From: Deltaproteobacteria bacterium
GTDB lineage: Bacteria > Lernaellota > Lernaellaia > JACKCT01
Length of the DNA: 36,262 bases
Direction: 5' to 3'
Assembly (NCBI GenBank): GCA_020845895.1
Contig: JADLEX010000114.1
Location: 1-36,262, forward strand
Made by a program: the position numbers and the translations under genes. The notes beneath the pieces were generated by a model. The model did no database searches, was not told the origin of the DNA, and saw only the letters and a program-made list of their open reading frames with translations. This document shows, one piece after another, positions 1,612-23,577 of the stretch; position 1 is the stretch's first letter, and every line of letters starts with the position of its first letter.

Positions 1612-1650
1612 AAAAAAGGGCCCCCACGTGTGCCATGTCCCGTGGGGGCC
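1612..1650 (-). terminator. Rho-independent terminator of the amt-glnK-porin operon
   Basis: A perfect 10-bp stem (GGCCCCCACG at 1619-1628 with CGTGGGGGCC at 1641-1650) and a 12-nt loop are followed, on the minus strand, by six T residues (plus-strand A run 1612-1617) and a second T run. It lies about 80 nt after the porin stop codon, as expected for the end of that transcript. Confidence 0.85.
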
Positions 1651-1727
1651 GAATAGAAGGAGAAGACCGTTTGGGCTTGGGAATGACCGCCCGACCTTCG
1701 GTCTGTAGGCCGGGCGGCGTGGGGCCT

Positions 1728-2915
1728 TTAGAAGACGACCTTGGCCTGGAGCTCGGCGAGCGAATCGGTGTTCGAGTCGCTGTCCGAACCGGTCAGGAAC
1801 TGCACCGCGAGGTGCAGGCCGTCGATGTAGTCGGTGCCGACGTAGCCGCCGAACTGCGTGTAGGTGGTGGGCTCGAACTCGGGATCGAGGCCCGCCGTGC
1901 CGAGCCAATCGAGGCCCGACACGCCCGCGTACTTGCCGCCGACCTGAACGCGCTTCTTGTCGAACATCAGCGCGAGCTCGCCGTGCGTGGCGGAGATCGC
2001 CGTGGCCTCGCCGGCCGCGTCCACGTATTCGAGTTCGTCGAACTCGCCGGTGGTGGCGTACTCGCCGGCCACGCCGATCGCGACCATGTCGTTCACCGCG
2101 AAGACGCCGTTGGCGTACGCGCCGTAGGCCGGGACGTTGGCGTCGTAGAGGACCACGTCGTCGGTGGCGTCATTCGGCGTGTCCGCGATGTCCTGCGCCA
2201 TCAGCAGGCCGCCCACGCCACGCAGCGTCTCCGTCGCGTCGGACAGGTAGTAGCCGCCGATTTCCAGCACCTGGTCGTCGAGGTTCGCGAGCGGATACAC
2301 CGCCAGCGCCGCGGCAACGTCGCCGATCGTGTCGTCGCCCGGGTCGGCCGCGCCGTTGTCATCCTGCACGGTGTCGAAATTGCCGTTGAACACGTGGGCC
2401 GACACGGTGGCGAACTTGTGCGTGTACCCGACGCCCAGACCGCTCGCCCGCGTCCAGAACAGATCCTGCACCCGCGTGTAGCCGGGGCCCCAGGAGGTAA
2501 AGTCGCCGACCGGCGGATAGTACTTGCCCATCTTGGCCCAGATCTCGCCGCCGTCGCCCTTGTTGAAGGCGTATTTCGTGATCAGGTAGAACTCGTCGAT
2601 CGTCAGGCTCTCGGTGCGGCCCGTGTGGTCGCCGTTCGACCAATCGACGTAGTAGAAGACCGCGTCGGCCGTGACGTAATCGTTGATGTCCACGTGCGGG
2701 GCCACCGCGGCCTCGAAGACCTTGATGTCGGACGACGAGATGGCTTCGGCGACCGACTCGTCCACGTCCGGCGTCCACGTATAGAACTGCACGCGCGTGT
2801 CCAGGTAGCCGGTGAACGAAATCCTCTCCGCCCACGACTCCTCGTCCGCGGCCATGGCCGTCGCGGCGAACGCCGCCATGCACATCACGATCGCAATGGT
2901 CACTCGGACTCGCAT
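1728..2915 (-). CDS. Outer-membrane beta-barrel porin-like protein
   Basis: This is a 395-residue protein. The start at 2915 was chosen because it begins a clean signal peptide (MRVRVTIAIVM... ending ATAMA) and has a G-rich Shine-Dalgarno (GGGGG) just upstream; the longer in-frame extension has neither. The mature part is rich in alternating aromatic and polar strands (FTGYLDTRVQFYTW near the N-terminus, AELQAKVVF at the end) and finishes with Phe, the usual signature of outer-membrane barrels. Acidic turns with many Asp residues fit surface or periplasmic loops. It lies 41 nt after glnK on the same strand and shares its terminator, so it is probably co-transcribed with amt and glnK. That suggests a role in passage of a nitrogen source across the outer membrane, but the substrate is not visible from sequence. 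An LbtU-like or general substrate porin is possible. Confidence 0.75.
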   Translation of the reverse strand: MRVRVTIAIVMCMAAFAATAMAADEESWAERISFTGYLDTRVQFYTWTPDVDESVAEAISSSDIKVFEAAVAPHVDINDYVTADAVFYYVDWSNGDHTGRTESLTIDEFYLITKYAFNKGDGGEIWAKMGKYYPPVGDFTSWGPGYTRVQDLFWTRASGLGVGYTHKFATVSAHVFNGNFDTVQDDNGAADPGDDTIGDVAAALAVYPLANLDDQVLEIGGYYLSDATETLRGVGGLLMAQDIADTPNDATDDVVLYDANVPAYGAYANGVFAVNDMVAIGVAGEYATTGEFDELEYVDAAGEATAISATHGELALMFDKKRVQVGGKYAGVSGLDWLGTAGLDPEFEPTTYTQFGGYVGTDYIDGLHLAVQFLTGSDSDSNTDSLAELQAKVVF

Positions 2916-2956
2916 TCGATACCCCCACGTTGGAATGGAATACACCGGGAACAACA

Positions 2957-3298
2957 TTACCCGATCGCCTCGCTTCCCGTCTCGCCGGTCCGAATGCGGA
3001 TGCACTCCGGCAGGTCGAGGATGAAGATCTTTCCGTCGCCGATCTTGCCGGAGCGCGCCCCGGCAACGATCGCGTCCACCGTCGGCTTGACGAAATCGTC
3101 GTTGACCGCGATCTCGAGCCGCACCTTTTTGAGCAGGTTCACTTCGATGTCCACGCCGCGGTACATCTCGTGGAACCCTTTTTGCTGACCGCAGCCCAGG
3201 GCGTTGGTCACGGACATCTTGTAGACTTCCTTCTCGTAGAGCCGCTGCTTCACGTCGGAGAGCTTCTCCGGCTGGATATACGCAATGATGAGTTTCAT
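2957..3298 (-). CDS. glnK: P-II nitrogen regulatory protein (GlnK-type) lacking Tyr51
   Basis: At 113 residues it has the standard P-II length. P-II trimers sense 2-oxoglutarate, ATP and ADP and control the ammonium channel and other nitrogen targets. Conserved residues are in their usual places: Gln39, Lys58, the SGKIGDGK loop at 83-90, and Arg101/Arg103 in IRIRTGE. The T-loop keeps Tyr46 but has Ile at position 51, the site normally uridylylated by GlnD in proteobacteria (the usual YRGAEY reads YRGVDI). Signalling is therefore expected to rely on ligands only, or on another modification. The gene starts 13 nt after the amt stop, the classic amt-glnK arrangement, although in the common amtB operon glnK comes first. 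Confidence 0.95.
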
Positions 3299-3311
3299 CG
3301 GATCGCCCCCT

Positions 3312-4586
3312 TTATTCGACCGTGAAGACCTGGAAGCCGCTGTACGACTCCATGCCGTGTTCGCTGATGTCCAGACCGCGCTGTTCCTCGTGATGGTGCG
3401 CGCGGATGCCGATCGTCACCTTCATCGCGTAAGTGACCGCGAAGACGCACGCGAACACGAACAGACAGCAGGCGGCGCTTCCGATGAGCTGAACGCCGAG
3501 TTGCGAGAACCCGCCGCCCATGAACAGTCCGTCGTTGGGAAGGCCAAGGGCCTTCTGGCCCCACAGGCCGACGGCGATGGTGCCGAAGATGCCGTTGGTG
3601 CCGTGCACTGAGATCGCGCCGACTGCGTCATCGACCTTGATTTTGTCGATGAATGCGACCGAGAGGCACACGAGCACGCCGGCGATGAGTCCGATGATGA
3701 TCGACGCATTCGGCGAAACGAACGCACACGGGGCCGTGATCGCGACCAGACCGGCGAGCGAGCCGTTGAGCGTGAAGCTCAGATCGGGCTTGCCGAATCG
3801 CGCCCAGGCGTATCCCATGGCCGACATCGCGCCGGCCGAGGCCGCGAGCGTGGTGTTGAGGGTGATGAGGCCGATCAGTTTGCCGTCACCGACCGCAAGG
3901 GCGCTGCCGGCGTTGAATCCGAACCAACCGAGCCACAGGATGAAGGTGCCCAAGCCCGCGAGGGGAAGGTTGTGGCCGGGGAATGCCTTGGGCGTGCCGT
4001 CGGGCTTGAATTTGCCCACGCGGGGACCGAGCAGCCACGCCACCGCGAGTGCCGCCATACCGCCGACGGAATGCACGACGGTCGAGCCCGCGAAGTCCAT
4101 GAAACCCATTTTCGCGAGCCAGCCGCCGCCCCAGATCCAGTGGCCGACGATCGGGTAGAGGAACCCGGAAATGACGAGGATGTAGACGAGGTACGCCCGG
4201 AACTGCAAACGCTCGGCGATGGCGCCCGCCAGAATCGTCGCGCCCGCGCCGGCGAACACCACTTGGAAGATCCAGTAGATGTGAACCGGCAGCTTGCTCG
4301 GGTTGAACGTCGAGGGATCGCCCGACAGGAAGAACCCCGACAGGCCGATGAACCCGTTACCCGTGCCGAACATGAACGCATAACCGAACGCGTAAAAGAC
4401 GAGGGCCGTCAGACAGAAGTCCACGTAACCCTTCATCATGACGTTCACGCCGTTCTTGGCGCGCGTCATTCCGGACTCCAGACACGCGAACCCGGCCTGC
4501 ATGAAAAACACCAGAGCTGCGGCGAGGAGGACCCAAAGGGCGTCCACTCCCGCTGCGACCGCCTCAGCCGTGAGCGTCGATTCCAT
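3312..4586 (-). CDS. amt: Ammonium transporter (Amt family)
   Basis: This 424-residue inner-membrane protein has about eleven transmembrane helices. The start at 4586 (MESTLTAE) was chosen because a GGAGGGAG Shine-Dalgarno precedes it and the family normally begins here; there is no obvious cleaved signal peptide. The pore twin histidines are His172 ([12 protein letters not shown]) and His328 ([12 protein letters not shown]). The conserved Asp is Asp164 (GFMDFAG), and the Phe of the pore gate motif is seen in [11 protein letters not shown]. The protein conducts ammonium into the cell and is normally blocked by GlnK, whose gene follows directly. A sigma54-like promoter lies about 100 nt upstream, in line with nitrogen-limitation control. 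Confidence 0.97.
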
Positions 4587-4889
4587 GGCGGATTGTCTCC
4601 CTCCATCGTACGAGTGAATGTCAACGGAAATTCGGCGATGGCCGAACGTCCAATTCCCGAATCGATGGCGGCGCAATACTCAAACGCCGTGCCAAGTTGG
4701 GAAACCGAACCCAAGTGGCCGTTTTCTCGAGGGAAGGGAATTCACCGCTGGTCAGAAAACGACGAATGTGCGACAAAAATGGAAAATCAGTGGCCGATAA
4801 TGGAACAATCGAGCGGCTTTCCGGGGGAGATCTACGTATTTGTCGACAAATCAGCCGATGGAGCGAAATAATTTTGAAGAAACTTCGGT
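4587..4889. other. Intergenic region upstream of amt
   Basis: About 300 bp lie between the prenyltransferase stop and the amt start, both leftward genes. No open frame with a ribosome-binding site is seen. The stretch carries the sigma54-like element at 4679-4694 and is AT-richer from 4730 to 4880, where enhancer or NtrC sites would be expected. No clear NtrC palindrome was found by eye. Confidence 0.5.
4679..4694 (-). promoter_or_regulatory. Sigma54-like (-24/-12) promoter for amt-glnK
   Basis: Read on the minus strand the sequence is TGGCAC-GGCGT-TTGAG. The -24 element matches TGGCAC perfectly and the five-base spacing is right. The -12 element matches TTG, but the normally invariant C of GC is an A. 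It sits 93 nt before the amt start. Nitrogen-regulated amt-glnK operons are classic sigma54 targets, which supports the call; the -12 mismatch keeps it a candidate. Confidence 0.45.
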
Positions 4890-5786
4890 TCAGGTCGTGT
4901 AGAGCAGGACGACGACCGCGACGAACCAGAGAAGGATGTTGATGAGGAGCGGCTTGTCTGAAACGAGCACTTTGCTTGGGCTGCCGCCTTCTTCCCGCTG
5001 ATGGACGAGGTAGAGATAGCGGAAGATGCCGTAAATGACGAAGGGGATGGTCAATGGTAGGCGCGTCGTGCCGAGCTTTTCGATCGTCGCCGCGTCCATC
5101 GTGTAGAGCGAATACGCAACCACGGTGCTCGCCGTGACGACTGCGATCATCTGGTCGAGGTAATACGGCGAATACTCTTCGAGAATCCGTCGGTGCTCAC
5201 CCGCCTCGCCCGAGAGCAGCACCAGTTCATGCCGCCGTTTGCCGAATCCGAGGAACAGCGCGAGCAGCGTGGTGCACACGATGATCCACATGCCGATCGG
5301 CACGTTGATGATCGCCGTGCCCGCCAGCACCCGCAGCACGAATCCCGCCGCGATGCAGCCCACGTCCAGAATCACCACATGCTTGAGCTTGAGCGTGTAC
5401 GCGATCTGGAGGGCGAGGTAGAGCACGGCAATCAGGAAGAAGTCGAACCCCACCTTGGTCGTGACGATGTTGAGCGCGAGCGAGCCGACGAGCGCCGCGA
5501 TCGCGACGAACCCCATGGCGCGGCGCGCGTCGGGGATCGACAGCTCGCCCGAGGCGATGGGGCGGAACTTCTTGTTGGGATGCAGGCGGTCTTTTTCGTA
5601 GTCCTTGATGTCGTTGAACAGATAGACCGCGCCCGACAGCAGGCAAAAAACGACGAAGCCGCCGCAGACCGCGATGACGTCGGTGAGGTCGGTGAGATGA
5701 CCCGCAAAAACGAGCGCCGGGAAGACCATGAAGTTCTTGATCCACTGCTTCGGGCGCATCGCTTTCAGGACGGCCATCACGTTCAT
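4890..5786 (-). CDS. UbiA-family decaprenyl-phosphate phosphoribosyltransferase (DPPR synthase-like)
   Basis: This 298-residue polytopic membrane protein has the prenyltransferase signature NDIKDYEKD at residues 58-66, followed by HPNKKFRPIASG (69-80). That combination is typical of the branch that transfers 5-phosphoribose from PRPP to a polyprenyl phosphate, as in mycobacterial Rv3806c. The later FGKRRHEL segment with a downstream Tyr-rich ILEEYSPYYLDQ also fits that branch. About eight hydrophobic segments are seen. The product would feed decaprenyl-phosphoryl ribose or arabinose for cell-surface glycan. The usual partner genes (DprE1/DprE2) are not in the window, so it stands alone here. 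The ATG at 5786 is assumed; another ATG lies three codons later, and the ribosome-binding site is weak for both. Confidence 0.88.
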   Translation of the reverse strand: MNVMAVLKAMRPKQWIKNFMVFPALVFAGHLTDLTDVIAVCGGFVVFCLLSGAVYLFNDIKDYEKDRLHPNKKFRPIASGELSIPDARRAMGFVAIAALVGSLALNIVTTKVGFDFFLIAVLYLALQIAYTLKLKHVVILDVGCIAAGFVLRVLAGTAIINVPIGMWIIVCTTLLALFLGFGKRRHELVLLSGEAGEHRRILEEYSPYYLDQMIAVVTASTVVAYSLYTMDAATIEKLGTTRLPLTIPFVIYGIFRYLYLVHQREEGGSPSKVLVSDKPLLINILLWFVAVVVLLYTT

Positions 5787-16494: not shown

Positions 16495-16562
16495 GCGCGA
16501 CATCGTGCGCTCGTTTCCTCGGCAACTCCCGACCGGTTAGTCGCTCGCGCAATTCGCGGGAG

Positions 16563-16578
16563 TTTGACTCACGTCAAA
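16563..16578 (+). promoter_or_regulatory. Crp/Fnr-family binding site (TTGAC-N4-GTCAA)
   Basis: The site reads TTTGAC-TCAC-GTCAAA, a perfect 6+6 palindrome around a 4-bp spacer. It matches the half-site form used by FNR, DNR/NnrR and HcpR-type regulators, which respond to oxygen, NO or nitrosative stress. Its centre (16570.5) lies exactly 41.5 bp upstream of the start point predicted from the -10 at 16600-16605. This is class II activation geometry. It lies 166 nt before the alpha-subunit start codon. Confidence 0.75.
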
Positions 16579-16596
16579 TGCCCGGCGATACTCCCG

Positions 16597-16605
16597 TGCG
16601 ATAAC
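16597..16605 (+). promoter_or_regulatory. Extended -10 promoter of the molybdoenzyme operon
   Basis: The sequence TGC-GATAAC has an extended -10 TG motif and a hexamer matching TATAAT at four of six positions. It predicts a start near 16612. There is no recognisable -35, as expected when a Crp/Fnr protein bound at -41.5 replaces it. The leader to the ATG would be about 132 nt. Confidence 0.5.
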
Positions 16606-16743
16606 GCTCGCGACGGAACACGTCGTGTTGTTGATTTCGTCCTGCCGCGTCGATGCCCGTCGACGGCGTCAGGGCGCTTCGGGTTTCCAGGGTCCGATAT
16701 CGTTCTACAGGTCCGACATCGCATCGCGATCGCGGGAGGCGAC

Positions 16744-19700
16744 ATGAAGAATTCGTCCGGCAAGAGTCTATCGAGGCGGTGTTTTCTCACGCACCTGGCC
16801 GCCGCCGGCGCAGGGACGACGCTCGTCGCGGGCAAAGCCGCCGCGGCCATGAACATGCTGCGCCCGGTGATCGTCGACAACCCGCTCTCCCAGTATCCGA
16901 ACCGCGAATGGGAGAAGGTCTATCGCAACCTCTACAAATCCGATTCGTCGTTCACGTTTCTGTGCGCGCCGAACGATACGCATAACTGCCTTCTGCGCGC
17001 GTACGTGAAGAACGGCGTGGTGACGCGCATCGGGCCGACTTACGGGTTCCACAAGGCGACCGATCTGGACGGCAACGCGGCCAGCCGCAGGTGGGATCCG
17101 CGCTGTTGCCAGAAGGGCCTCGCGCTCGCCCGTCGTTTTTACGGCGACCGCCGCTGCCGCAAGCCCATGATCCGCAAGGGCTTCAAGCAGTGGGTCGATG
17201 ACGGCTTCCCGCGCGATCCCAAGACCGGCGCCGCCGATCCCAAATACATGCAGCGCGGTCGCGACTCCTGGGTGGCCGGGACGTGGGACGAGGCGTTCGA
17301 GCTGTCCGCGAAAGCGATGATCAACATCGCGAAGACCTACACGGGCGACGAGGGCAAGAAGCGGCTGCTCGCGCAGGGCTACGACCCGGTGATGGTCGAT
17401 GCGACGGGCGGCGTGGGCACGCAGGTGCTCAAGTTTCGCGGCGGCATGCCGTTGCTCGGCATGACGCGCGTTTTCGCGCAGTACCGCCTCGCCAACTCGA
17501 TGGCGTTGCTCGACAACAAGCTGCGTGGCGTGTCGCCCGATCAGGCACAGGGAGCGCGCGGCTGGGACAACTATAGCTGGCACACCGACCTGCCGCCGGG
17601 ACACCCGATGGTGACGGGCCAGCAGACGGTCGATTTCGACCTGTGCAACGCGGAGCACGCGGGGCTCGTGATCGTGTGGGGCATGAACTGGATCACGACC
17701 AAGATGCCCGACAGCCACTGGTTGACCGAAGCGCGCATGAAGGGCACGAAGGTCGTCGTCATCGCGTGCGAATACAGCGCGACGGCGAGCAAGGGCGACG
17801 AGGTGCTCGTGGTGCGGCCGGGAACGACGCCGGCGCTCGCGCTCGGCCTCGCGCAGGTCATCATCGCCGAAAAGCGCTACGACGCTGACTACATCAAAGC
17901 CAACACGGACCTGCCGCTGCTCGTGCGCATGGATACGGGCGTGAAGCTGCGCGCATCGGATGTGTTTCCCGATTATCAAAACGCCGAATTGTCGGATCGC
18001 AGCAAGGTTCTGGCCGCCGGCGAAAAAGCGCCACCGATGTTCGAGCAGGCCGGACCGACGATGACGAAGGCACTGCGTGACGCGTTCGGCGACTACGTGA
18101 TCTGGGACCGGAAAAAGAAAGCCCCGGTCGCCGTGAATCACGACCAGGTCGGCGAGCACTTCGCGAAGTTGCGCATCGATGCGCAACTCGAAGGCGCTGT
18201 GAGCGTCAAGCTCGCGGACGGTAGCACGGTGACGTGCCGCACGGTCTTCGACGTCACGAAGGAAATGCTCGACGGCAGCTACACACCCGAGGACGTGGAA
18301 AAACTCACCTGGGCGCCCGCGAGCGCGATCCGCACGCTGGCTCGCCAGATCGCGGCGAACAAGGACAAGACGCTGTTTGCGATGGGCATGGGCCCGAACC
18401 AGTTCTTCAACAACGACCTGAAGGACCGCGACGTCTTCCTGCTGGCCTCCCTCACGCGAAACATCGGCAAGTTCGGCGGCAACGTCGGCAGCTACGCGGG
18501 CAACTACCGCACGAGCTTTTTCAACGGCATCGGCCAGTACATCGCCGAGGACCCGTTCAACGTGCAGCTCGATCCGGCCAAGCCGTCCACGGTGAAGCGC
18601 TACTTCAAGCCCGAGAGCGTCCACTACTTCAACCACGGCGACCAGATCCTGCGCATGGGCGACGCGGTGCTGACCGGCAAGTCGCACGTGCCCACACCGA
18701 CCAAATCGTTCACGGTCAGCAACTCCAACTCGCTGATCGGCAACGTGAAAGGCCACTACGACTTCGTCATCAACACGCTCTCGCGCGTCGAGTTCGTCGG
18801 CGTGAGCGACTGGTGGTGGACGGCGAGCTGCGAATACGCCGACATCGTGTACGCGGTCGATAGCTGGGCCGAGTTCAAGTACCCCGACATGACCGCGAGC
18901 GTGACCAATCCGTTCCTCTACGTCTTCCCGGTCACGCCGCTCGAGCGCATCCACGACACGCGAAGCGACGTCGAGGTGGCCGCGGGCATCGCGAAGGCTG
19001 TCGGCAAGGAAACCGGCGACGATCGCTACGACGCCTACTGGAAGTTCATCGAAGACGGCCGCGTGCGACCGTATATCCAGCGCGTTCTGAACGCGTCGAA
19101 CAGCACCCGCGGATACAAGATCGCGGATCTGGAAAGGAACGCGGAGGCGGGCATTCCGGGCATCATTCAGACGCGCACGTACCCCAAGGTCGGCGCGTGG
19201 GAGCAGGGTAACGAGAGCAAGCCGTACTACACCAAGTCGGGCCGTCTCGAGTTCTACCGCGACGAGCCCGAGTTCATGGACAGCGGCGAGAACCTGCTCG
19301 TGCATCGCGAGCCGATCGACTCCACGTTTTACGAGCCGAACGTGATCGTGGCGAAAGCGCACCCCTTGCTGCGCCCGAAGACGCCCGACAAGTACGGCGT
19401 CTCCCCGGACAAGCTCGATGCTGACACGCGTCAGGCGCGGCACGTCGTGCGCACGGTGGACGAGCTGATGTCCACGGAGCATCCGCTCTCGCACGAGGGT
19501 TACAAGTACATCTTCCATACGCCGAAATACCGGCACGGCGCGCACACCACGCCGATCGACACCGACATCGTGGCGATCTGGTTCGGGCCCTTCGGCGACA
19601 TGTTCCGCGCCGACAAACGCATGCCCTTCATCAGTGAGGGCTATATCGATATTCATCCGCAGGATGCGAGGGATCTCGGCCTGGAGGACGGGGATTATGC

Positions 19701-20223
19701 GCACATCGACGCCGATCCGCACGACCGGCCCTTCCGCGGATGGGAAAAATACCCCGAGGGATACAAGGTCGCCCGTCTGCTCGCGCGTGTGCGTTACTAT
19801 CCCGGCACGCCGCGCGGCGTCACGCGCATGTGGCACAACATGTACGGCGCGACCTTTGGCTCGGTGAAGGGCCAGGCTCAAAACGCGAACGGCCTCGCGA
19901 AGAGCCCCGAGACGGGCTACCAAGCCATGTTCCGGACCGGCAGCCACCAGAGCTGCACCCGCGGCTGGCTCAAGCCCACGATGATGACCGACACGCTCAC
20001 GATCAAGCAGACCTTCGGGCAGGAGATGAAGCAGGGATTCGAGCCCGACGTGCACTGCCCGACCGGCGCGCCGCGCGAGTCGATGGTGCGTATCACGAAA
20101 GCCGAAGACGGCGGATTGAACGGCAAGGGTCTGTGGCGGCCGGCGCAGCTCGGCCTGCGTCCCGGTTACGAGAACGACGTGCTCAAGAAATTCCTGGCCG
20201 GCGCTTACGTGAAACGCGCCTAG
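16744..20223 (+). CDS. Periplasmic molybdopterin oxidoreductase, catalytic alpha subunit (type II DMSO reductase family, Nxr-like)
   Basis: This 1159-residue protein is close to periplasmic NxrA in length. The start at 16744 has GGGAGG upstream and gives a Tat signal ([17 protein letters not shown]), so the enzyme folds with cofactor and is exported. The N-terminal cluster site is C74-x3-D78-x3-C82 with Cys121/Cys122 following. In NarG the first ligand is His. Asp282 in [16 protein letters not shown] is the expected Mo ligand (NarG Asp222 equivalent). Later segments such as [20 protein letters not shown] and [17 protein letters not shown] are, from memory, those of the Nitrospira/anammox nitrite oxidoreductase clade. 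The reaction could be nitrite oxidation, nitrate reduction or another oxyanion or hydrocarbon substrate. It is the first gene of a five-gene operon. Confidence 0.9.
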
Positions 20224-20243: not shown

Positions 20244-21371
20244 ATGGCGAAGCGAATGAATTGGCAGATCGGCCGGGAGATGGATTACCCCTACGACTCC
20301 ACTCCGCCCAAGCGGCAGGTCGCCTACATCTTCGATACGAACAAGTGCATCGAGTGCCAGACCTGCACCGTGGCCTGCAAGACCTGCTGGACCAGCGGCA
20401 AAGGGCAGGAGCACATCTTCTACAACAACGTCGAGACGAAACCCTACGGCGGCTACCCGCTCGCGTGGGACCAGAAGCTGCTCGACATGCAGGGCCCCGG
20501 CGAGTGGCGGAAGGTCACTTACCTCGGCAACACCGTCTTCGAAAACCACAGCCCCCTCGATCCGCCGATCGGCCATCGCCCAGTGATCGAGGACTACGCC
20601 GCGCCGAATATCGGCGAGGACGACACCACCGGTCTGCTGGAGCGCGGCGGGTTCTTCGACGGCGTGCATCCGCACTGGATGTTCTACCTCGCGCGCATCT
20701 GCAACCACTGCGACAATCCCGCCTGCGCCGCGGCCTGCCCGCGCAAGGCGATCTACAAACGCGACGAGGACGGCATCGTGCTCGTCGATCAGGAGCGTTG
20801 CCGCGGCTACCAGGAGTGCGTGAAGGCGTGCCCGTACAAGAAAGTCTTTTACAACGTCATCGGCCGCGCGAGTGAAAAGTGCATCGGCTGCTTCCCGCGC
20901 GTCGAGGAGGGCAAGGTCGCGCTGTGCGTCGAGTCGTGCATCGGCAAGATCCGCCTGCACGGATTCCTGACCACGCAGGACGAGCCGCGCGAAGACAACC
21001 CCTTCGACTACATCGTCAAGATCCGCAAGCTCGCGCTGCCGCTCTACCCGCAGTTCGGCACCGGCCCGAACGTGTACTACATCCCGCCGATCCACGTGCC
21101 CGACGGATTTCTGGAGATGATGTTCGGACCGGGCGTGGAGGAGTCGAAGGAACTCTACCGCAACCTGAAAAACGATAAAAAACTGTTGGGCGCGCTCATG
21201 CTCTTCGGGTCGACCGAGTACATGATCGACCGGTTCGAGGTGCAGGGCGACGAGGTGGTCGGCTGGAACGACAAGGGCGAGGAAGTCACCCGCGTGCCGT
21301 TCACCGAGCCGACGGTTATCCGCGACCACCGCGACGAGCGCTTCGGCGCCTTCCGTCACAACACGAACTAA
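20244..21371 (+). CDS. Iron-sulfur beta subunit of the molybdoenzyme (NarH/NxrB/EbdB type)
   Basis: This 375-residue protein is the electron-transfer subunit. It carries four ferredoxin-type cysteine groups: C35/C38/C41/C45, C153/C156/C161/C165, C186/(Y189)/C192/C196 and C213/C216/C228/C232. Tyr189 replaces one Cys, so three [4Fe-4S] and one [3Fe-4S] cluster are expected, as in NarH, where Trp is at that place. The segment WTSGKGQEHIFYNNVETKPYGGYP is typical of periplasmic type II enzymes. There is no signal peptide, so it should be co-exported with the Tat-targeted alpha subunit. GGAGG lies 8 nt before the ATG at 20244, 20 nt after the alpha stop. It passes electrons between the Mo centre and the heme-b gamma subunit. 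Confidence 0.95.
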   Translation: MAKRMNWQIGREMDYPYDSTPPKRQVAYIFDTNKCIECQTCTVACKTCWTSGKGQEHIFYNNVETKPYGGYPLAWDQKLLDMQGPGEWRKVTYLGNTVFENHSPLDPPIGHRPVIEDYAAPNIGEDDTTGLLERGGFFDGVHPHWMFYLARICNHCDNPACAAACPRKAIYKRDEDGIVLVDQERCRGYQECVKACPYKKVFYNVIGRASEKCIGCFPRVEEGKVALCVESCIGKIRLHGFLTTQDEPREDNPFDYIVKIRKLALPLYPQFGTGPNVYYIPPIHVPDGFLEMMFGPGVEESKELYRNLKNDKKLLGALMLFGSTEYMIDRFEVQGDEVVGWNDKGEEVTRVPFTEPTVIRDHRDERFGAFRHNTN

Positions 21372-21381
21372 GGGGCAAACG

Positions 21382-22359
21382 ATGTCGATGCGAACCATCA
21401 TCGGCGGTTGTGTCGCGCTGATCGCGCTTGCGTTCGCCACCGCGTGCGCGTCGACCTCCGCGCCCGAGGCGGCGCTGGAAGACGCCGGCGCGCCGGTCGC
21501 CAAAGCCCCGTGGCCGCCCGCGGGCTCGTTCCCGTCCATCGCGCCGACGCAGGCGGACAAGCTCGTCGTCGTTCGTGCCAAGGCTGACCTGGCGACGGAC
21601 AATCCCTACGCCGAGTATTGGAACAACGTCCCGGCGTATCGCGTCCCCGTCATCCCGCAGCTCATCACCGCGCCGCAACTCCTGCCCGAGCAGACGGCCG
21701 TTCAACAAATCGACGTGCAGGCCGTGACCGACGGCAAGACGATCGCATGGCGGCTCACCTGGGCCGACGCCACCGCCGACGGCAACGTCGACACGGCGCG
21801 GTTTACCGACGGCGTCGCGATGCAGTTTCCGCTCGATCCCGGCGCCGCGCCCATGATGGGCCACCGCGAAACCGGCAAGGTGCAGATCGTTCACTGGAAA
21901 GCCCTGTGGCAGAAGGATCTCGACGTGGGATTCCAGGACGTGCAGGACCTGCATCCGAATTACTGGAGCGACCTCTACTGGTTCGCGGAAGGGAAGTTCC
22001 CTTATCCCGTTCCGACGGCCTTCAAGGACCCGCGCTCGCTGCAGTGGTTTGTCGCCAATCAGGCGGGCAACCCGTTGGCGGTGTTCTCGCGCACGCAGCC
22101 GGCGGAAGAGCTGATCGCGGAAGGATTCGGCACGCTCACGCACCAGAAAGATTCCGTCTCGCGAGCCAAGGGCGTGTGGGCCAACGGCACGTGGTCGGTC
22201 GTCATCTCGCGGCCGATCGCATCGACCGATCCGCTCGACTACCAGTTCCAGCTCGGCGGCGCGGGTCAGGTGTCGTTCGCGGTGTGGGAAGGCACGCACG
22301 AAAACGTCGGCGGGCGCAAGCACTGGACGAACTGGGTGCCCTTCGAGGTGCAACCGTGA
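21382..22359 (+). CDS. Heme-b gamma subunit (ethylbenzene-dehydrogenase-type), predicted lipoprotein
   Basis: This 325-residue protein is 10 nt after the beta gene. The N-terminus is a signal peptide with a likely lipobox ending at Cys22 (FATAC), so it would be exported separately and lipid-anchored. The mature part matches the EB_dh heme-binding fold of EbdC/SerC/ClrC/NxrC-type subunits. Candidate heme-b axial ligands are Met147 (DGVAMQFP) and Lys313 (VGGRKHWTNW), matching the Met/Lys pair known for ethylbenzene dehydrogenase. This subunit links beta-subunit clusters to a periplasmic cytochrome, and a c-type cytochrome is encoded two genes later. Lipid anchoring would tether the complex to a membrane. 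The family call is good; the ligand assignment is by position and motif. Confidence 0.85.
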   Translation: MSMRTIIGGCVALIALAFATACASTSAPEAALEDAGAPVAKAPWPPAGSFPSIAPTQADKLVVVRAKADLATDNPYAEYWNNVPAYRVPVIPQLITAPQLLPEQTAVQQIDVQAVTDGKTIAWRLTWADATADGNVDTARFTDGVAMQFPLDPGAAPMMGHRETGKVQIVHWKALWQKDLDVGFQDVQDLHPNYWSDLYWFAEGKFPYPVPTAFKDPRSLQWFVANQAGNPLAVFSRTQPAEELIAEGFGTLTHQKDSVSRAKGVWANGTWSVVISRPIASTDPLDYQFQLGGAGQVSFAVWEGTHENVGGRKHWTNWVPFEVQP

Positions 22360-23108
22360 CGGAGGCAGTTTTCAACAACCTCGCGCCGCTCGCGCAGTCC
22401 GATCTGCTGGGCGTGCTGGCCGATGCCTTCACCACCCCGGTCGCGGCGCACGCGCTGCGTGAGACGAAGCCGGACGATCTGCGTGCACTCGTCGAAACGG
22501 CGGGTTTCGCCGGGGCCGAGGGTCTCGTTGCGGCGATCGACGAACTTCACGCGCGGGTGTCGGCGGCGTCGCTCGACCAGATCGAGGCGGAGCACGCCCG
22601 GGCGTTCTGGGCGCAGTCCGACTGTCCGCCCTACGAGTCCGCGTTCGTTCGCCGCGACAAAGGCGCGATTCTCGGCGACATCGCCGGGTTCTACGAGGCG
22701 TTCGGCTTCCGCGCCGATCAGCCGGGCGAGCGGCGCGCCGACCATCTCGTGTGCGAACTGGAATTCCTCGCCGCGCTTCTGGTGATGGCGGAACGCTCGA
22801 AGGCCGAAGGCGAGCCCGAGCGGACCACCGTGACACAGACGGCTATCGACAGTTTCGTGTGGGAGCATCTCGGCGACTGGCTGCCGACGTTTTGCGAGCG
22901 GCTGTCGGCTACCGTGCCCGGCGGCGTGCTCGACGCGGCGGCCACGGCGCTTGGCCTTCTGTGGGACAGTCTTGTGCTCGCGCACAACTGGCCCGCGGGC
23001 GATTCCGCTGCGTTCGTCGCCGACGACGGCACGCCGTACGAGTGCCCGATGGCGACCGAGGAGCAGTGGACTCCGGTCGAGTTCGATCCGGGCGCGACGC
23101 ATTCGTGA
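22356..23108 (+). CDS. TorD/NarJ-family molybdoenzyme chaperone (delta)
   Basis: This 250-residue cytoplasmic protein has no signal. It starts with GTG at 22356, overlapping the gamma stop by four bases (GTGA), so translation is coupled. The family motifs are CPPYES (90-95) and ADHLVCELEF (128-137), in a helical protein of normal TorD/NarJ length. Such chaperones hold the apo-alpha subunit until the Mo cofactor is inserted and shield its Tat signal. Placement inside the operon makes the alpha subunit its client. It is not part of the finished enzyme. Confidence 0.88.
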   Translation: MTEAVFNNLAPLAQSDLLGVLADAFTTPVAAHALRETKPDDLRALVETAGFAGAEGLVAAIDELHARVSAASLDQIEAEHARAFWAQSDCPPYESAFVRRDKGAILGDIAGFYEAFGFRADQPGERRADHLVCELEFLAALLVMAERSKAEGEPERTTVTQTAIDSFVWEHLGDWLPTFCERLSATVPGGVLDAAATALGLLWDSLVLAHNWPAGDSAAFVADDGTPYECPMATEEQWTPVEFDPGATHS

Positions 23109-23181: not shown

Positions 23182-23577
23182 ATGACCCAGGGTTCGATTT
23201 CCAAATTCGTGATGACGATCGCCGTGGCGGTGGCCGTGGCGATGGCGGCGCAGTTCGCCTTCGGTCCCGTCGCCGACGCCGCCGGCCTGCTCGGCGACGC
23301 GGCCAAGGGCGCGGCTCCGTACAAGACCTACTGTTTCTCGTGCCACGGCGAAAAGGGCGACGGCAACGGTCCCGCCGGCGCGGCGCTCAATCCCAAACCG
23401 CGCGCCTTCACCGACAAGGCGTACATGTCCGGCCTGACCGACGAACAATTGCTGAAGGTCATCACGGACGGCGGCGCGGCGGTCGGCAAGTCGCCGCTCA
23501 TGGCTCCGTGGAAGGGCACGCTCAAGGATCAGGAGATCAAGGACGTGGCCGCCTACGTTCGCGCGGTCGCGAAGTAA
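23182..23577 (+). CDS. Periplasmic monoheme cytochrome c
   Basis: This 131-residue protein has a signal peptide of about 33 residues ending ADAA, and AAGGAGAG just before the ATG. The heme-binding motif is CFSCH at residues 51-55, and Met107 (SPLMAPWKGTL) is the likely sixth ligand, giving a class I cytochrome c. The surroundings (GEKGDGNGP, LTDEQLLKVITDGG, DVAAYVRAVAK) are typical. As the last gene of the operon, it is the natural electron partner of the gamma subunit, carrying electrons to or from the respiratory chain. A strong terminator follows within 30 nt. Confidence 0.95.
   Translation: MTQGSISKFVMTIAVAVAVAMAAQFAFGPVADAAGLLGDAAKGAAPYKTYCFSCHGEKGDGNGPAGAALNPKPRAFTDKAYMSGLTDEQLLKVITDGGAAVGKSPLMAPWKGTLKDQEIKDVAAYVRAVAK

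Follow-up and report, generated by a model that had tools for sequence, protein, structure and literature searches.

Two questions are raised by this locus: what switches on its NXR-type operon, and does the molybdoenzyme encoded there oxidize nitrite or reduce nitrate? For enzymes of the NXR clade the sequence by itself is silent on the second question. Membership of the operon in one regulon with genes for nitrite reduction and NO defence is an independent clue to the direction of the enzyme. We followed up a Crp/Fnr-type palindrome that a first-pass annotation had pointed out upstream of the operon. The window, by which we mean the whole 36,262-nt stretch analyzed, belongs to a genome (G000) that we compared with two genomes of the same family (G001 and G002) and one of the same class (G003). 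The features are collected in Table 1.

Table 1. Predicted promoter elements and genes at the NXR-type operon, in coordinates of the window.
Feature	Position	Strand	Basis
Crp/Fnr-family (HcpR-like) operator TTTGAC-TCAC-GTCAAA, predicted	16563..16578	+	Exact match; conserved at the G002 orthologue
Competing sigma-70-like pair TTGACT-N17-GATACT	16564..16592	+	Consensus scan; corresponding spacing not enriched at other boxes
Extended -10 element TGC-GATAAC	16597..16605	+	Spacing equals the peak of -10-like hexamers elsewhere, window excluded
Predicted transcription start (+1)	16612	+	Inferred from the -10 position alone
nxrA-like molybdoenzyme alpha subunit, Tat-like signal	16744..20223	+	Best solved relative Kuenenia NxrA 7b04, 942 bits; CAPNDTHNC
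nxrB-like Fe-S beta subunit	20244..21371	+	TIGR03478 270 bits, under its cut-off; Fer4_11
nxrC-like heme-b gamma subunit	21382..22359	+	TIGR03477 139 bits, under its cut-off; PF09459
Probable TorD/NarJ-type chaperone, 250 aa, GTG start	22356..23108	+	Open frame overlapping the nxrC stop
c-type cytochrome	23182..23577	+	PF13442/PF00034

The alpha subunit matches Kuenenia NxrA over its full length, as against a score of about 131 bits with NarG, and its CAPNDTHNC motif follows the Cys/Asp and Asn pattern of FS0 that has been reported for NXR, whose clade includes the nitrate reductase of Beggiatoa (PMC8387239). It thus displays both marks of the NXR clade, full-length likeness to NxrA over NarG and the FS0 Cys/Asp motif. 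With the nitrite oxidoreductases of the Nitrospira/anammox clade, among which the Beggiatoa-type nitrate reductases fall (PMC8387239), the enzyme shares CxxNDxxxC, the Fe-S beta subunit and the heme-b gamma subunit. It differs from them in that its nearest relatives belong to sulfur bacteria, among them Thioploca and Parabeggiatoa (at 74% the closest to alpha in the genome collection), and in lying under an HcpR-like box that is common with nrfHA. The chaperone function was assigned as probable by analogy, with no family match, and a protein related to it is encoded at the same place in G002. Among the other PF00384 proteins of the genome one is PhsA-like; further ones, of which part were run against the family library, were read by eye as formate dehydrogenases and NuoG.

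The predicted operator reads TTTGACTCACGTCAAA. The description of it as a perfect palindrome holds for the two 6-bp arms, which are fully complementary inverted repeats, but not for the central TCAC. Around the box, CGGG (16557–16560) and CCCG (16581–16584) form a further, outer inverted repeat that keeps the same register. Within the window the exact box occurs once. Matches with up to three mismatches are as frequent there as in shuffled sequence (7 against a mean of 6.98), so that only the exact match is informative; in the genome, matches with two mismatches number 66 against 52 in the control. Loose matching, at up to three mismatches in the window and two in the genome, was accordingly set aside as background. 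The exact 16-mer is present in two copies in the 5.0-Mb genome, where 0.05 are expected from base composition, and the backward-read control gave none genome-wide. The shorter form TTGACN4GTCAA occurs seven times against 1.65 expected and not at all in the control.

The genome-wide search for the same box, which the first-pass annotation had proposed, thus yielded a second exact copy, and this copy stands before nrfHA (contig 124, position 10461), centred about 77 bp before the NrfH start codon. NrfH scores 163.8 bits with TIGR03153, above its cut-off, and is followed by a pentaheme NrfA of 507 aa (PF02335, 442.7 bits). Divergent from nrfHA (contig 124, 10657–13011) lies a gene whose lipoprotein-like product contains extended Asp/Thr repeats (DDDDDD, TDDDT), and similar repeats are seen at several other loci of this family. 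Of the further TTGACN4GTCAA sites, the one on contig 26 has no evident target. The others precede a porin-like gene, a heme-copper cluster on contig 34 and the genes of a YgbA-type protein (PF11756, 75.9 bits) and of an HHE hemerythrin (PF01814, 65.2 bits). A role in N-oxide metabolism is plausible for the genes behind five of the seven sites. In the contig-34 cluster (1634–5609) the box is followed by a COX1-like gene, then by a subunit of cupredoxin type and by a divergent COX1 in which the motif reads GHQSQQ. A Gln where the cross-linked Tyr would stand is the hallmark of eNOR (PMC8756737), and by eye, with no family test, we read the cluster as a putative eNOR-type NO reductase. Automatic annotation may label it cytochrome oxidase.

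The box is conserved in a related genome. G002 has an orthologous NXR-type operon with protein identities of 70–79%, and the centre of its box, TTTGACCTGAATCAAA, lies about 73 bp upstream of the start codon. Other boxes of G002 lie before ygbA, a di-heme cytochrome c peroxidase gene and a nearby cytochrome c gene, the latter related to the c-type cytochrome gene at 23182..23577 in the window. G001 has no close NXR; related boxes, with TTGAT half-sites, stand there upstream of nrfH and of a gene homologous to the first one in the contig-34 cluster. The G002 nxrA is split, as is the G002 regulator gene considered below.

The first-pass annotation had placed the centre of the box 41.5 bp from the start predicted by the extended -10 element, and the arithmetic is correct (16612 - 16570.5 = 41.5). 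The element consists of TG (16597–16598), a C, and GATAAC (16600–16605). Because a sigma-70-like pair overlaps the box, we sought independent support for the promoter assignment in the spacing at other boxes. The -10 hexamer of the window begins at nucleotide 22 counting from the 3′ end of the 16-mer (offset 22). We collected the gene-facing TTGAYN4RTCAA boxes of G000 and G002, for which the surrounding gene calls are crude, and left out the promoter of the window, which gave 38 promoters. Their mean -10 score is maximal at exactly offset 22, with P of 0.0006–0.001 for this pre-stated offset and 0.03 when the best of all offsets is taken; in G000 alone the peak is weak. TAnnnT occurs six times at offset 22, against a mean of 0.36 per offset. 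The hexamers found there include TATATT (ccp), TACGAT and TACGGT (two ygbA genes) and TAGAGT (contig 34), as well as TAACTT (nxr) and TAACGT (cytochrome c) in G002, while the -10 spacing of the nrfHA and HHE hemerythrin promoters is one base off. G001, which lacks both a close NXR and a close regulator orthologue and served as an informal negative control, shows no -10 peak. A box centre near -41.5 is obtained with the predicted start, the spacing at other promoters agrees with it, and the class II reading is supported independently of the promoter in the window.

The first-pass annotation had also staked its proposal on the genome holding a Crp/Fnr regulator of this type, and a suitable one is encoded on contig 159. 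Five Crp/Fnr proteins score above the family cut-off; one more match, where contig 6 breaks off, belongs to the protein truncated on contig 137, of which it is the opposite end. Four of the five have the recognition helices SRETVSL or VETxIR. The contig-159 protein (3584–4276), with a cNMP-binding domain (PF00027, 75.6 bits) and a Crp-type HTH (PF13545, 62.8 bits), has the helix SETLSR, in keeping with the E..SR pattern seen in FNR-type readers; it is the sole one with an E..SR helix, and its position 180 is Ser. The change of R180 to Ser has been linked to TTGACnnnnGTCAA by Rodionov et al. (PMC1274295). The helix rule of TTGAC-reading HcpR1 proteins (Ser/Pro at 180, Glu at 181) is obeyed here and in the G002 orthologue, which keeps GTVSETLSR. 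This orthologue (contig 9, ~54345–55020) is split by an apparent frameshift in the assembly. In G003 the best match to the contig-159 regulator adjoins a ferredoxin-type (frdX-like) gene and hcp, and a TTGATTAAGGTCAA box precedes the ferredoxin gene, which is the canonical HcpR arrangement. The best match of this hcp-linked protein in G000 is in turn the contig-159 regulator (37.5%, 152 bits; next 82), making the two mutual best matches. We found no close orthologue in G001 (31% at best), and on contig 159 itself neither N-oxide genes nor a box upstream of the regulator gene. From its helix and relatives, the contig-159 protein is probably the regulator that reads the box.

The HcpR motif of delta-proteobacteria is ATTTGACCNNGGTCAAAT or wyTTGACnnnnGTCAArw, and the HcpR regulon of Desulfuromonas and Geobacter comprises nrfHA, a nar operon, hemerythrin and cytochrome c genes (PMC545781, PMC1274295). 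Likewise, in this genome such boxes lie before nrfHA, nitrate-reductase-type and hemerythrin genes. The HcpR (HcpR1) regulons of Desulfuromonas, Geobacter and Desulfotalea agree with what we observe in the box, in Ser/Pro at position 180 and in the targets nrfHA, a nitrate reductase operon, hemerythrin and cytochrome c genes. Here, in contrast, there is no hcp, an NXR-clade enzyme stands where nar is named, and the regulator is unlinked to its targets. The core targets of HcpR, hcp and frdX, do not belong to the set seen here: hcp (PF03063) has no match in G000, G001 or G002. As the core target hcp is absent, we use "HcpR-like" only and do not claim membership in HcpR proper. DNR and FNR class II promoters, with TTGATnnnnATCAA at -41.5, likewise have two half-sites, a 4-bp spacer, a centre at -41.5 and an extended -10, but the box in the window has C/G for T/A at the fifth position of each half-site, and the regulators found in this genome do not carry the FNR cysteines.

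Could the palindrome have arisen by chance and be without function? The matches with two or three mismatches, which stay near control levels, are what one would expect in that case, but the excess of exact copies, the functional coherence of their targets and the conservation of both the box at the orthologue and the spacing make this very improbable. Another alternative takes the sigma-70-like pair as the promoter, with TTGACT at 16564 as -35 and GATACT at 16587 as -10, and the palindrome as a Crp/Fnr repression operator or as incidental. The pair scores 9 of 12 with the optimal 17-bp spacing and is the sole such pair in the region, where 0.1 are expected. Yet other boxes are enriched for the class II spacing but not for the hexamer offset of 9 that this pair requires (P 0.29), and a start near 16599 would transcribe the entire terminator-like hairpin at 16609–16627. 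We consider this arrangement unlikely, and activation rather than repression the probable outcome of binding. The hairpin and the T run that follows it (16609–16637) lie exactly at the predicted start, where 0.3 such structures are expected by chance; the stem would be complete in a transcript from ~16599 and lack its first three bases in one from 16612.

The same class II site might instead be read by another protein, either an FNR-type O2 sensor or one of the four other regulators, in which case the signal would be anoxia and not NO. FNR and DNR boxes are only one base per arm away from the box in the window, and a cysteine-bearing, FNR-like regulator that has its own TTGAY-type box is encoded in both G001 and G002. 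In G000 (99.5% complete) we searched for an FNR-type regulator and found none, nor do the regulators read there carry FNR-type cysteines; the cysteine type is seen in G001 and G002 only. As no Crp/Fnr protein found in the genome has these cysteines, the regulator is probably not FNR. Moreover, the four remaining regulators have VETxIR or SRETVSL helices, and the co-regulated ygbA and hemerythrin genes point to NO. A different reader of the site is therefore improbable, about as much so as the sigma-70 arrangement. The cysteine-type regulators (G002 contig 1, 502164; G001 contig 80, 11232) have an N-terminal CFTC...C and an R-P-E-T helix, and the box just upstream of the gene in both genomes suggests autoregulation.

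We thus favour, with a probability of roughly 0.7, an HcpR-like class II activation of the NXR-type operon that responds to NO or nitrite and is shared with nrfHA and NO-defence genes. An HcpR/DNR-type Crp/Fnr dimer, probably of the contig-159 protein, would sense NO, presumably through heme, bind the box centred at -41.5 and contact RNA polymerase from the -35 position, so that NO or nitrite switches the operon on from ~16612. Further targets of this regulator would be nrfHA, ygbA, the HHE hemerythrin and the eNOR-like cluster. The periplasmic NXR-type enzyme would then turn nitrate into nitrite and NrfHA would reduce nitrite to ammonium, with the remaining genes handling NO formed en route. 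The first-pass annotation had offered low oxygen or NO as the signal; the Crp/Fnr-family box and the class II geometry stand, and the signal can be narrowed to NO or nitrite as the more likely one because the regulators found have no FNR-type cysteines and the targets resemble those of HcpR. The anaerobic respiratory role that it proposed is supported for N-oxides, given that nrfHA and NO-defence genes have the box as well and that the -10 spacing is seen again independently. Co-regulation with a nitrite reductase makes its other option, a nitrite oxidase produced under microoxic conditions, less likely. Given the regulatory context and a clade that includes the Beggiatoa nitrate reductase, we infer that nitrate reduction is the more likely working direction of the enzyme.

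In order to look beyond these genomes, we searched the upstream regions of 79 NxrA relatives. As coding and upstream sequences differ in composition, dinucleotide shuffles replaced in-gene sequence as the control in this cross-phylum comparison. TTGAYN4RTCAA was found in 6 of the 79 regions (0.09 expected from shuffles), TGAYN4RTCA in 19 (1.2 expected) and the CRP-type TGTGAN6TCACA in 4 (0.01 expected), in records of Beggiatoaceae, Deltaproteobacteria, Bacteroidetes and Omnitrophota, among others. This enrichment makes the clue to enzyme direction applicable beyond the present genome. In the relaxed cross-phylum set the -10 spacing at offset 22 is not significant (P 0.16); TAnnnT at offset 22–23 in five of the six exact FNR-type boxes was noticed post hoc. 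In the papers that we read, we found no report of a Crp/Fnr site before an NXR operon. NXR-clade genes in metagenomes have been hypothesized to be NxrA (PMC10732223). We tentatively suggest, at slightly less than even odds, that in many phyla, apart from the known nitrifiers and anammox bacteria, NXR-clade enzymes serve as respiratory nitrate reductases under the control of Crp/Fnr regulators of NO or anoxia, and that here an HcpR-like regulator without hcp couples the enzyme with NrfHA and an eNOR-like NO reductase in one nitrate-to-ammonium regulon. Across several phyla the palindromes before NXR-type operons are of FNR-type, intermediate or CRP-type form, as if the type of box had switched together with the regulator.
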